Origin: a virus
IMG/VR virus record: IMGVR_UViG_3300048836_000098
Coordinates: 1 to 64,000 of that record
Reading direction: 5' to 3' (one strand)
Length of the DNA stretch: 64,000 nucleotides
Under the pieces are notes generated by a model. The model saw only the letters and a list, made by a program, of their open reading frames with translations, ran no database searches and was not told where the DNA came from. Numbering within the stretch: position 1 is the stretch's first letter; each line of letters starts with the position of its first letter. Both the position numbers and the translations under genes were made by a program. Shown piece by piece: positions 3,093 through 62,446 of this stretch.

Positions 3093-3716
3093 ATGAAATC
3101 AATCAAAGCACGAATCACATTCACAGAAGAAGTTCTCGGAACATGCGCGGGTGATCCTAGAATCCATGAAGAGTTCATTGCATCAAAAGCCCCGAACGCT
3201 CTGAATATGGAAGAAGAAGTTGCCGCGCTCGGTGTAGATGAAGTTGTCAAGAACGGCATGACGGTATTCCCGCGAGACAATCAAGACCGACCGTTTCTCT
3301 ACGACTACCAGATCAAAGGTTTCTTTAAGGACGCATGTTCGATGTTGTCAAGATGCTCCAGCAAGGACGCGAACGGCAAAAAACAGGCGGTCAACGAATC
3401 GTCCAAGATCACGGCATTCAAAAAGGTGATCGACGGTATGATTTTCGTAACACCAAGACAGATTCCGTTCGTGTTCGATGGTGCTGTTGGGAACTGCCAG
3501 CGACCACTCAGAGCGCAGACGGCACAGGGTGAGCGAATCGCCCTTGCAAACAGCGAAACCATTCCTGCGGGCGCGTACATTGACGTTGAGATCGTTCTGT
3601 TGAATGAAGCGTATGAATCGGCTGTCATGGAATGGCTGGACTACGGCAAATGGCGCGGCATTGGTCAGTGGCGAAATTCCGGCAAGGGCGCGTTTACTTA
3701 CGAATTGCTGAAATAG
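3093..3716 (+). CDS. RAMP-superfamily-like (Cas7-like) phage protein, 207 aa
   Basis: GGAGGG lies upstream of ATG 3093. The product opens with a beta strand (KARITFTEEVLGT). Residues ~69-82 (LYDYQIKGFFKDAC) match the S-x-K-G-x-hh-R-x-A helix of Cas7/Csm3-type RAMP proteins. The C-terminus ends in a glycine-rich loop at 189-199 (GIGQWRNSGKG), as in RAMP RNA-binding proteins. A conserved-looking QRPLRAQTAQGE stretch lies at ~136-147. RAMP proteins bind or cut RNA; RNA binding here is inference from these motifs. The gene ends in TAG at the exact start of the GGCA-rich tract, so protein and tract share a transcript. No other Cas gene is present. Confidence 0.55.
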   Translation: MKSIKARITFTEEVLGTCAGDPRIHEEFIASKAPNALNMEEEVAALGVDEVVKNGMTVFPRDNQDRPFLYDYQIKGFFKDACSMLSRCSSKDANGKKQAVNESSKITAFKKVIDGMIFVTPRQIPFVFDGAVGNCQRPLRAQTAQGERIALANSETIPAGAYIDVEIVLLNEAYESAVMEWLDYGKWRGIGQWRNSGKGAFTYELLK

Positions 3717-4139
3717 TTGCGACGGCAAATCCTTGCATCGTGAGCAACAGCACAGCAAGGAACTGAATATCTCCGCAAAGGCATTTGAATAGCGATACAA
3801 GGCAACGGCACTGTACGGACGAGCAGGGACTGCACGGCAATGGAAGAGTTCGGAAGGGCAGAGTTAGCAAAGGCAACGCTTAGAATCGAGAGGCGATGGA
3901 GTAGCAAGCCGAAGAGAAGCGCAGCAAAGGCAAGGCGTTGAAACGGATAGCAAAGGCAAGGCACCGTCTAGCACAGCGAGAGCGAGGCATGGCGGAGCGT
4001 AGCAACAGCATGGCAATGATTGGAGAAGCGGAGTTCGCAACGGATTAGCCAAGCATTGAGTCGCAAAGCAACAGAGAGGCATAGACCAGAATTGAATCGC
4101 AACAGCATAGCTTGTCTAGGCATGCATAGCCATGGCACA
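3717..4139 (+). repeat. Purine-rich GGCA/GCA-dense irregular repeat tract, non-coding
   Basis: Begins at the stop codon of the RAMP-like gene and runs ~420 bases. GGCA occurs at 3724, 3780, 3801, 3807, 3836, 3857, 3872, 3929, 3955, 3960, 3986, 4012, 4078, 4119 and 4134, against fewer than two expected by chance. GCAAAGGCA occurs at 3775, 3867, 3924 and 3950. Clusters of GCRRR units five to six bases apart alternate with unique 8-20 base segments, without a fixed period, so this is not a canonical CRISPR array. No credible start codon with ribosome site is present. Open frames on the complementary strand follow from base composition. It is presumably transcribed as a 3' extension of the upstream gene. 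Confidence 0.7.
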
Positions 4140-4145
4140 GACCTC

Positions 4146-4174
4146 TTGACAACCTCGCGCACTTGCTATATTCT
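4146..4174 (+). promoter_or_regulatory. Promoter of the small RNA gene
   Basis: TTGACA (4146-4151) and TATTCT (4169-4174) are separated by 17 bases; an overlapping TATATT (4167-4172) gives 15. The predicted start of transcription, ~4181, coincides with the first base of the paired RNA element. It starts just after the GGCA tract ends. Confidence 0.65.
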
Positions 4175-4362: not shown

Positions 4363-4536
4363 ATGAAGATTCCGAAAGCGGCAATCGCATTAAATCGTAG
4401 TACAAAGACAATCCGCACTTGGATTAAGAGCGGTATTCTTCATGCTACAAAGTTGGGAAGAGATTGGGAAATCTCCGAAGAAGAAGTTGACCGGATTAAG
4501 CGCGACGGTCTGGAACTCAAACGGCAAGATGAATAA
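4363..4536 (+). CDS. Excisionase/MerR-like helix-turn-helix protein, 57 aa
   Basis: AGGAG lies 6 bases before ATG 4363. The pattern of a short winged helix-turn-helix is clear: AIALNRSTKTIRTWIKSGIL recognition region, then LGRDWEISEEEVDRI wing and helix. This is the fold of excisionases and DNA-binding helix_turn_helix_17 proteins. With its own promoter and the antirepressor next, it may control the lysis-lysogeny switch or act as excisionase. A second such protein is at 23963. Confidence 0.75.
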   Translation: MKIPKAAIALNRSTKTIRTWIKSGILHATKLGRDWEISEEEVDRIKRDGLELKRQDE

Positions 4537-4545
4537 GGAGATTAT

Positions 4546-5358
4546 ATGAATACTGATATTCAAATTTTTAACAACGAACAATTTGGGAACGTTCGGGTTA
4601 TTGATCTAGGCGGTGAACCGTGGTTTGTTGCCAAAGACGTTTGCGAGGCGTTCAATGACACAAACCACATCAGAAGCGTTGGCCGGATCGATGATTCCGA
4701 TAAATGCGTGATTCAGGTTATTGACAACCTCGGAAGAACACAGAGCGCAACAGCGGTAAATGAGTCTGGATTATACTTGCTATTGTTCGGAATGCAACCG
4801 CAAAAGGCAAACAATAGTGGGGTGTCCGATGCGTACCCCATCGAGGTTCAGAAAAGAATCGATAGGTTGCGAGATTTTAAGCGGTGGATTACTCACGATG
4901 TTCTTCCATCTATTCGCAAGCACGGCATGTACGCAAAGGACGAACTACTCGACAATCCCGACCTGCTGATTGAGGTTGCAACCAAGCTAAAGCAGGAACG
5001 CGACGCTAGACTTTCCCTCGAAGCAGAGAACGCCGCTATGCTTCCAAAGGCAGATTTCTACGACGCGGTAATCGAAAGTTCCGACACCATCGAAATGGCA
5101 ACCGTCGCAAAGATTCTGAATGTTGGGATCGGTCGCAATAGACTGTTTGAAATTCTACGTGAACAAAAGATTCTTAGGGATGATAACACCCCATTGCAGA
5201 ATTACGTCGATCTTGGTTGGTTCAAGTGCGTCGAGAGCAAATACACTAAACCAGACGGCGGAACATTCATCAACGTCAAGACCGTCGTTTATCAAAAAGG
5301 TATCGATGGAATATTAAAGTTGCTTAAAGATAAATATAATTTGAAACCGATTGTTTGA
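4546..5358 (+). CDS. Phage antirepressor, Bro-N plus KilAC domains, 270 aa
   Basis: AAGGAG lies upstream of ATG 4546. Residues ~5-115 are a Bro-N domain (WFVAKDVCEAF, later NESGLYLLLFG and RDFKRWITHDVLPSIRKHG). Residues ~165-270 are a KilAC/ANT domain (AKILNVGIGRNRLFEILREQKIL, then Y-x-K-P-D-G). Such proteins bind DNA or repressor to induce lytic growth. Lies in an operon with the HTH gene before it. The next gene is four bases away. Confidence 0.9.
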   Translation: MNTDIQIFNNEQFGNVRVIDLGGEPWFVAKDVCEAFNDTNHIRSVGRIDDSDKCVIQVIDNLGRTQSATAVNESGLYLLLFGMQPQKANNSGVSDAYPIEVQKRIDRLRDFKRWITHDVLPSIRKHGMYAKDELLDNPDLLIEVATKLKQERDARLSLEAENAAMLPKADFYDAVIESSDTIEMATVAKILNVGIGRNRLFEILREQKILRDDNTPLQNYVDLGWFKCVESKYTKPDGGTFINVKTVVYQKGIDGILKLLKDKYNLKPIV

Positions 5359-5372
5359 GTAGGGGTATCTAT

Positions 5373-5942
5373 ATGTCTGAAAGAAAACCCATATCAAAGA
5401 AATTGCGCTTTGAGATATTCAAGCGCGATGGATTTACTTGCCAGTATTGCGGAAAGATGTCGCCTGACGTTGTGCTAGAGGTTGATCACATTAAGCCAGT
5501 TGCAAGCGGTGGCAAAAACGACATGCTCAACCTTGTTACGGCGTGTTTGTCATGCAATCGCGGTAAGGGTGCAACCGAATTAAAAGACGAATCAATGGTG
5601 ATTAAGCAACAGAAGCAGCTTACCGAAGCAAACGAAAGACGGTTGCAGTTGCAAATGATGCTTGAATGGAAAGCGGAACTTGCTCGTCTTGTTGAGGATC
5701 AAGTGGATTATATCTGTGGCGTTTTCTTTAGTACCTATAAGCACGTATTGCAGGATCACGAGAGGCAGAATATAAAGTCACTAATAAATCGGTTTGGATT
5801 TAACGATGTTTGCGAGGCTGTTGACATTTCAATATTGAAATACAATTATTATTATTACGCACTTGAAAAACTTGGCGGCGTTTGCTATAACCGTAAAAAC
5901 GGAATAAGGAGTGTTAAACATGGCAATCAAACGAATCGTTAG
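5373..5942 (+). CDS. HNH endonuclease family protein, 189 aa
   Basis: ATG 5373 follows GTAGGGG; an in-frame TTG at 5355 lacks a ribosome site. Residues ~15-65 form an HNH fold with zinc ligands: CQYCG, then LEVDHIKPVASGG with DH as catalytic core, then NLVTACLSCNRGKG. The remaining ~120 residues are helical. In Firmicutes phages this type often precedes the replisome organiser, as here, with the two genes overlapping by 23 bases. The base composition is more AT-rich than most neighbours. Confidence 0.85.
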   Translation: MSERKPISKKLRFEIFKRDGFTCQYCGKMSPDVVLEVDHIKPVASGGKNDMLNLVTACLSCNRGKGATELKDESMVIKQQKQLTEANERRLQLQMMLEWKAELARLVEDQVDYICGVFFSTYKHVLQDHERQNIKSLINRFGFNDVCEAVDISILKYNYYYYALEKLGGVCYNRKNGIRSVKHGNQTNR

Positions 5943-11693: not shown

Positions 11694-12626
11694 ATGCTAA
11701 AAGATGAAATCCTGTCGCAGTTAGACCGATTCGCGTCATATCTTGCAGAGGTTGAGGGTAAGCCTTTGACCACTATTAACGCATATGTCGGTGACATTCG
11801 GCAGCTTGCGACTATGTTTTCTGAAATGCCGGAAATCGCGGAGAAGTCAGTGACAGCCATCCGAAAGCCAGACGCGAACGCATACGCGAAGAAAATGGCA
11901 GACAGCGGAATGAAAGCATCTACTCGCGCAAGGAAAGTCAAAGCGGCTCGGTGCTTCTTCCGTTGGCTCTGCGAAGATGCAGAAGTCGTTTCGGAGTCCG
12001 TATCAAATGCGTTCAAGTCACTGAAATCGCCAAAGATTCCGCAGACACAGCCGTCGATCATAACGAAAGACGAGCGAGACGATTTGCTATCCGTGGTCAG
12101 AACTGGTGTATCAATGAATGAAAAGGCGCATTTGCGCGACGTTGCGATCATGTATCTATTTCTCGGTTCTGGAATCCGCCGTGACGAGTTGTGCAATATC
12201 GAGATGAAAGACGTTGACTTAAAAGAGCGTTGCGTGCTGATTCACGGAAAAGGCAACAAAGAACGCTACTGCTACTTTTCGGAGGGTGTTGCGGGAATCC
12301 TATCCGAGTACATCGGTCATCATCGGAAATCGCTTAAATGCCACGCAGAAAGCACCATGCTATTCTTGTCGCAACAGTCCGAACGAATCAGCTTGAGAGC
12401 AATCAACAACATCGTGGACAAATACCTAGAAGCATCGAACCTAAAAGAACACGGAAGATCGGCTCACGGATTGAGAAAGTCTTTCGCAACAACGCTGTAC
12501 GAGAACACGCGGGATATTTACGTAGTAGCCGCACAACTTGGTCACAGCGGGTTGGGACAGATCAAACGATACGTAGGCGTAGGAAATGACGTAAGGCAGG
12601 CCGCCTGTGCGACGGTAGAATTGTGA
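11694..12626 (+). CDS. Tyrosine recombinase / integrase, 310 aa
   Basis: AAGGAG lies upstream of ATG 11694. Residues ~5-95 form a SAM-like core-binding domain (TTINAYVGDIRQL, RKVKAARCFFRWL). The catalytic domain carries Arg near residue 162 (GSGIRRDEL), Lys in HGKGNKERY, HGLRKS near 258, LGHSG near 281 and the nucleophile Tyr near 293 (IKRYVGVG). All six catalytic positions are present. Its length and domain order match XerC/D-like phage integrases. It is separately promoted. An attP core could not be identified. It may integrate the prophage or resolve genome multimers. Confidence 0.9.
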   Translation: MLKDEILSQLDRFASYLAEVEGKPLTTINAYVGDIRQLATMFSEMPEIAEKSVTAIRKPDANAYAKKMADSGMKASTRARKVKAARCFFRWLCEDAEVVSESVSNAFKSLKSPKIPQTQPSIITKDERDDLLSVVRTGVSMNEKAHLRDVAIMYLFLGSGIRRDELCNIEMKDVDLKERCVLIHGKGNKERYCYFSEGVAGILSEYIGHHRKSLKCHAESTMLFLSQQSERISLRAINNIVDKYLEASNLKEHGRSAHGLRKSFATTLYENTRDIYVVAAQLGHSGLGQIKRYVGVGNDVRQAACATVEL

Positions 12627-61769: not shown

Positions 61770-61845
61770 TGGCGAATGATCTTGGACTTGAACCAAGACG
61801 CTTCCGATTAACAGCCGGACGCTCTTCCGATTGAGCTAATCATTC
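61770..61845 (-). tRNA. tRNA-Asn (GUU)
   Basis: Acceptor GAATGAT / ATCATTC with encoded G-CCA. D-arm TAGCTCAATCGGAAGAGC. The anticodon stem TCCGG / TCGGA encloses loop CTGTTAA (anticodon GTT). Canonical T-arm CTTGG-TTCAAGT-CCAAG. A complete, ordinary 76-base cloverleaf. Confidence 0.95.
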
Positions 61846-62372: not shown

Positions 62373-62446
62373 TGGAGCGGATATTCGGTAACGATCCGAA
62401 CCTAACAGTTTGGAAAACTGCTGTGCTTCCAATACACCATATCCAC
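62373..62446 (-). tRNA. tRNA-Gly (UCC), unusual T-loop
   Basis: Acceptor GTGGATA / TATCCGC (one G-T pair) then T-CCA. D-arm GTGT-ATTGGAA-GCAC. The anticodon stem GCAGT / ACTGT encloses loop TTTCCAA (anticodon TCC). The T-stem TTCGG / CCGAA holds loop ATCGTTA, which lacks T54 and A58. Its 5' end lies 19 bases downstream of the -10 at 62465-62470. Confidence 0.9.

Follow-up and report, generated by a model that had tools for sequence, protein, structure and literature searches.

Why would a phage carry, directly behind a solitary Cas7-like gene, a purine-rich tract that seems to encode nothing? The question arises from a viral DNA stretch of 64,000 nucleotides, hereafter the window. An ORF on its plus strand (3093-3716) encodes a stand-alone RAMP protein of 207 residues with a Cas7/Csm3-like fold, and the tract (3717-4139, plus strand) starts directly after the TAG stop codon of that ORF (3714-3716). 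A previous, sequence-only reading of the window had pointed out this exact junction and proposed that the tract might consist of arrayed short RNA units, offer the neighbouring protein an RNA-binding platform or act as a decoy.

A tract recognisable by its phase

The first impression of a purine-rich tract with repeated short words is borne out, with purines making up 64.5% of the bases. GGCA occurs 15 times, against a mean of 6.4 in 1000 dinucleotide shuffles, two of which reach 15, and GCAAAGGCA is present in four copies (shuffle mean 0.04; none of 1000 reaches four). The clusters of GCRRR described at the same time are not in excess, at 16 versus 15.7 expected by chance. We also found seven GCAANGG motifs between 3775 and 4043, starting at 3775, 3802, 3837, 3867, 3924, 3950 and 4037 (plus strand; shuffle mean 0.6, with none of 1000 reaching seven).

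The spacing, which had been called irregular, is in fact the main feature of the tract. A G is found every 5 or 6 nt, and the G periodogram peaks at 40.9 near a period of 5.14, whereas the maximum in 1000 shuffles is 12.2. The best other stretch in the 64-kb window (3180 stretches, both strands) scores 10.5, and 3717-4139 is the only G-lattice tract in the window. It can be parsed into approximately 82 words that are 5 or 6 nt long and open with a lattice G, or about 13 units of about 31 nt, with G present at 71 of the 82 lattice points. The GCAANGG words are those that can carry the extra nucleotide.

The tract does not correspond to known types of elements. That it is neither a CRISPR nor a simple tandem repeat, as initially judged, is supported both by direct inspection and by Tandem Repeats Finder, which returned only a 39-nt scrap. 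This program is nearly blind to the tract because only the Gs repeat, and the lack of DNA similarity to phage records that we observed is likewise expected when nothing but the Gs is kept. The view that the tract contains no gene holds as well: neither strand of the tracts has a coding signal, with a period-3 power of 0.90 versus 7.1 for RAMP genes and 1 by chance. RNA structure does not exceed that of shuffled sequences (mean fold z of -0.38 over the tracts, 0.44 for that of the window), and Rfam 15 at the gathering score identified two tRNAs in the window and no match in the tract. Repeat finders and RNA-family searches thus overlook an element that is recognisable by phase alone. At another locus (L015), a pentapeptide-repeat gene made of GCAGACCTC units forms a second GCA-rich region some 570 bases past the RAMP gene; that region is coding and unrelated to the lattice.

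Just past the end of the tract, before an excisionase-like gene, lies a promoter-like site (TTGACA-17-TATTCT, 4146-4174, plus strand) that matches the consensus at 10 of 12 positions. As the number of such sites does not exceed shuffle expectation, this candidate promoter is suggestive only. The genes at 4363-5942, coding for an excisionase-like HTH protein, a KilAC/BRO antirepressor and an HNH endonuclease, together with an integrase gene (11694-12626), point to a temperate phage. The GC skew changes sign near 27 kb, which delineates two arms of opposite strand bias, and two tRNA genes are found on the minus strand (61773-61845 and 62376-62446).

A lattice with a period of 31/6 nucleotides

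We scanned 53 homologous viral loci and 55 loci from genome contigs for the lattice. The pooled autocorrelation of G in 20 tracts has peaks at 5, 10, 15/16, 21, 26 and 31 nt that continue to 62, 93 and 124 nt, and the period is therefore 31/6. In 38 strong tracts the weighted mean, 5.1671, agrees with this value (31/6 = 5.167), and the lattice is coherent over hundreds of nucleotides. Parsing of 46 tracts yielded 4274 five-steps, 867 six-steps and 6 four-steps, with G at 90.7% of the lattice points. The six-steps carry the motif GYAANGG (n = 819) followed by MANNG, and they mostly return after five, six or seven words, i.e. about once per 31 nt. The unit can therefore be written approximately as GYAANG-GMANN-(GYNNN)x4, or roughly 31 nt. 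Tracts range from ~240 to 1700 nt, with up to ~330 words.

Neither of two simpler descriptions accounts for this order. A random mix of 5- and 6-nt words is contradicted by the within-locus displacement, 0.87 nt at 24 words versus 1.61 for independent steps, and by the distribution of gaps between six-steps, which peaks at 5-7 words. Conversely, the displacement along the lattice exceeds that of a perfect ruler, so that a strictly rigid 31-nt repeat does not fit exactly either. The bases between the lattice Gs are almost unconstrained. In AT-rich phages G is kept at 87% of lattice points, whereas T or A often takes the place of the C after it, indicating that G is the constrained letter.

Such long-range coherence raises the possibility that the tract acts as duplex DNA, which is the main rival to the RNA-based reading developed below. 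The RAMP protein, or a partner that it recruits, would coat or wrap the DNA with a helical repeat of ~10.33 bp and touch a G every half turn, for instance at a segregation, packaging or replication site. A stiff double helix lying on a protein lattice would force such coherence over hundreds of nucleotides, doubling 5.167 gives 10.33, close to the repeat of B-DNA, and the module is often near genes for SSB, RecT, DnaD-like or other replication or recombination proteins. However, there is no 10.33 component beyond that at 5.17, as the G peaks show no alternation at 5, 10 and 21, and the tract therefore has no intrinsic bend. G is constrained on one strand and can be followed by C or T. The tract is always on the same strand as the RAMP gene, which is needless for a DNA site, and RNA binding is a known property of RAMP proteins. 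All in all, we consider a DNA site rather unlikely.

Linkage of the tract with the RAMP gene

The expectation that such a tract always follows homologues of the RAMP gene turned out to be nearly correct. For 89 distinct loci found by protein similarity, with at least 800 nt on both sides of the gene, we looked for a tract within 1.5 kb. One was present at 85, downstream of the gene in 51 cases, upstream in 21 and on both sides in 13, so that the tract need not follow the gene. At many loci it comes directly after the RAMP stop codon, and at others just before the start codon. The same 89 loci gave no tract when scanned at periods of 4-4.9 and 6-7, including none at 6.0, and only two lattice-positive stretches were found in 400 kb located more than 2.5 kb from the gene. 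Among the four negatives, L010, L101 and L102 have short or drifting tracts by eye, and L057 has tracts at 1.9 and 2.8 kb from its RAMP gene. A second, more distant protein search identified 295 relatives in the collection, 80 of which were fetched; a tract is present at 57 of the 59 complete loci. At least one homologue, that in L252, is truly devoid of a tract.

The linkage also holds in the reverse direction. A protein-blind DNA pattern of 21 fixed bases matched 111 stretches in the viral collection, of which 80 were fetched. A RAMP gene lies on the same strand at 68 of them, and 7 of the 12 remaining loci have one in the same contig. Among 394 whole genomes of one bacterial order, the RAMP gene is present in four and a 53-nt lattice pattern in two, both of which belong to these four and have the pattern beside the gene. 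Gene and tract were found in hundreds of bacterial viruses, and RAMP is the only gene family conserved across the loci. The carriers are mostly metagenomic phages or prophages and MAGs of gut Clostridia and Coriobacteria (Coriobacteriia). The carriers also include individual MAGs assigned to Saccharibacteria, Lokiarchaeota, Verrucomicrobiota or Parcubacteria, and these odd labels may be binning errors. The near-constant co-occurrence of the gene and the tract indicates that together they probably form a protein-RNA assembly of a previously undescribed kind.

Position next to the gene might also suggest an untranslated-region element through which the RAMP protein controls the stability, translation or termination of its own mRNA. 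The tracts that abut the stop or the start codon fit this idea, and TRAP provides an example of a multimer that binds short triplets at regular spacing (PMC4027176). Nevertheless, a length of ~240 to 1700 nt is far more than a regulatory site needs, and the tract is found upstream, downstream or on both sides, and sometimes remote from the gene. In G001, G003 and G004 it is distant from the RAMP gene, or the fragment that contains it has none. Simple binding of the protein to its own mRNA cannot therefore be the whole story, which also weighs on the assembly proposed below. We regard TRAP-like autoregulation as unlikely. In G001 and G004 (L141 and L183), further tracts away from the gene suggest an action in trans. 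These two, together with L174 and L172 (records G002 and G003), are large phages (50-255 kb) with long tracts beside SbcC/SbcD-like or other genes.

Selection on the lattice and evolution of the tracts

Substitutions were counted in aligned pairs of tracts that are 70-97.5% identical. Lattice Gs are substituted at 87 of 3299 sites (2.6%), compared with 517 of 2920 (17.7%) for off-lattice Gs, whereas the same parser applied outside the tracts gives no difference (20.4% vs 21.0%). Lattice Gs are substituted less in each of the 34 ordered pairs that have enough sites. Purifying selection thus acts on the lattice Gs, and the intervening bases drift. This bears directly on the idea that the lattice is an inherited low-complexity sequence or a mutational bias devoid of function. 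The purine-rich pattern and the apparent growth of some tracts by in-register duplication (L023) would be in keeping with it. The substitution test contradicts it, as the off-lattice Gs of a tract change 7 times as often as those on the lattice; G also stays at lattice points in AT-rich phages that lose the following C, and the lattice is associated with one gene across proteins down to ~35% identity. We find a lattice without function hardly credible.

Close pairs of tracts consist of identical blocks that alternate with diverged blocks and large indels. In L006 (3660-4680) versus L050 (3340-4350), and in L088 versus L093, identical blocks are found between strongly differing ones, with the lattice kept throughout, as if segments had been swapped between the tracts of close relatives. 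In L023 (5616-6220), a stretch of ~50 nt is found a second time within the tract, at a distance of some 4-5 lattice units, which suggests that tracts may grow by in-register duplication.

Whole blocks that differ between close relatives might also be expected of a guide-like RNA array, in which each ~31-nt unit would load a RAMP oligomer and the 4-nt stretches between the Gs would pair with a target. The Cas7 fold of the protein and the nearly free choice of bases between the Gs are compatible with this hypothesis. In contrast, when the non-lattice positions of 848 tract units were compared with 1.06 Mb of related phage DNA, a small target set, no unit had an antisense match of at least 92%, and the best antisense fractions equal those of controls. 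There is no spacer-like sharing, no processing gene and no conserved nuclease partner. A guide array appears very unlikely. Of the array of short RNA units envisaged in the sequence-only reading, what stands is a degenerate unit of ~31 nt; its contents vary freely, and the search of its segments against phage DNA yielded no antisense match.

A Cas7-like protein outside CRISPR

No family in Pfam, PHROG or NCBIfam covers the window RAMP protein. Its AlphaFold2 model (pLDDT 87) has its best Foldseek matches with the type VII Cas7 (8z4j, E 4.4e-8) and type III Csm3; 160 PDB entries match with E<=0.001, and the top 50 all come from class 1 effector complexes. Profile searches lend weak support (Cas7, E 0.009; Csm4, E 0.02). 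An invariant glycine-rich C-terminal motif, YG..G..Q..N...G, is profile-aligned with Cas7 of 8yhd and Csm4 of 6xn3 (E 0.009-0.02). PADLOC calls Cas7_IIId in 10 of 33 family members, and a viral relative in BFVD with 60% identity is named 'Cas system-associated RAMP superfamily protein'. The modelled fold, the profile matches and this named relative lead us to assign the protein to the RAMP superfamily.

By any feature that we examined, the RAMP protein is not part of a CRISPR system, as RAMP loci in general are not accompanied by a CRISPR array or other cas genes. One exception is L101 (3463-6185), from a contig labelled Lokiarchaeota. Its RAMP homologue (4953-5690) is located between a gene for a Cas12f/Cas12u-like protein of 463 residues (PADLOC E 3.6e-19) and four 29-nt copies of GTGACGCCCACGTGCGCATGGGAGGATGG spaced by 62, 62 and 55 nt. 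The repeats and the Cas12f-like gene might represent a phage-borne mini-CRISPR array.

A proposed RNA track

A Cas7-like protein whose partner is unstructured, non-coding, on the same strand and selected for its Gs is most simply explained by assembly on an RNA track. With somewhat more confidence than doubt, we propose a two-part phage module composed of the stand-alone Cas7-like RAMP protein and an RNA scaffold to which it would bind. Among the three early readings, the RNA-binding platform is the one best supported, by way of the Cas7/Csm3 fold. Cas7 and Csm3 form filaments on RNA, and the canonical Cas7 thumb kinks the RNA every 6 nt. The tract would be transcribed, usually on the RAMP mRNA, and remain single-stranded. 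RAMP subunits would assemble along it, one per word, each with a lattice G in a base pocket, and about six subunits and 31 nt would make one turn. The extra nucleotide at GYAANGG would reset the register once in each such turn. An RNA that ran on continuously, with no kink at each subunit, could explain the non-integer spacing of 5.17 nt.

The filaments that Csf2, a Cas7-like protein of type IV-B systems, forms on non-CRISPR RNA provide a precedent (PMC7937560). As known Cas7-type filaments have a 6-nt repeat (PMC7937560) and a period of 6 is absent here, the geometry would be unlike that of any solved complex. There is, in our view, an even chance that the module is a CRISPR-independent phage ribonucleoprotein made by a solitary Cas7-like protein that polymerises along a dedicated RNA track coded by sequence, the G lattice with its 31-nt turn being both assembly origin and ruler. 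It would be the first Cas7-type filament whose register is written in RNA. The RAMP-tract pair may represent an ancestral or a derived Cas7-RNA filament outside CRISPR. As for its role, we can only speculate that the complex might be a sequestering or decoy particle against host immunity, e.g. type III CRISPR, since the module travels alone in phage early regions and has no fixed sequence beyond the lattice.

If the proposal is correct, common gut phages harbour a new protein-RNA machine, in which a readable code, a G every 31/6 nt, links a Cas7-type protein freed from CRISPR with an RNA track of its own. This would bear on the origin of Cas7 filaments and on their roles outside CRISPR, and the protein, the RNA, the lattice and the register motif would give structural and functional studies an immediate handle. 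Whatever its role, the tract is a non-coding element tied to one gene family, and it exemplifies a whole kind of element that escapes current searches.

Comparison with known systems

Our search of the open-access literature found no described counterpart of the RAMP-tract pair. The closest relatives of the protein are the Cas7/Csm3 backbone subunits of class 1 types III and VII, with which it shares its fold (Foldseek E of 4e-8 and below) and an alignable glycine-rich C-terminal motif; RNA binding and self-assembly are thus to be expected. Unlike class 1 CRISPR-Cas systems, RAMP loci generally have no array or other cas genes, and the 6-nt spacing along class 1 crRNA is replaced by a G lattice of 5.17 nt, with none of 89 loci at period 6. 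The type IV-B Csf2-Cas11 ribonucleoprotein resembles the putative RAMP filament in that a Cas7-like filament forms on RNA other than crRNA and the locus has no array (PMC7937560). Nevertheless, the type IV-B complex depends on Cas11 and assembles on heterogeneous RNA, with a repeat of 6 nt, whereas the RAMP protein is associated with one dedicated, conserved tract and has no partner gene.

Racr RNA anti-CRISPRs are phage non-coding RNAs that mimic CRISPR repeats as solitary units and can be linked to Cas-like proteins (PMC10651486). The tract, a predicted non-coding RNA of phages, shares this potential link with Cas-like proteins, but it lacks a hairpin like that of a repeat, and its sequence is not fixed beyond the lattice. 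The way in which the RNA would be read is reminiscent of TRAP, a closed 11-mer ring that reads 11 (G/U)AG repeats in a leader (PMC4027176). Like TRAP, the RAMP multimer would read a G-containing word about every 5 nt on single-stranded RNA. The TRAP fold, however, is unrelated to the Cas7 fold of the RAMP protein, and the RAMP tract extends to as many as ~330 words, phase-locked at 31/6.
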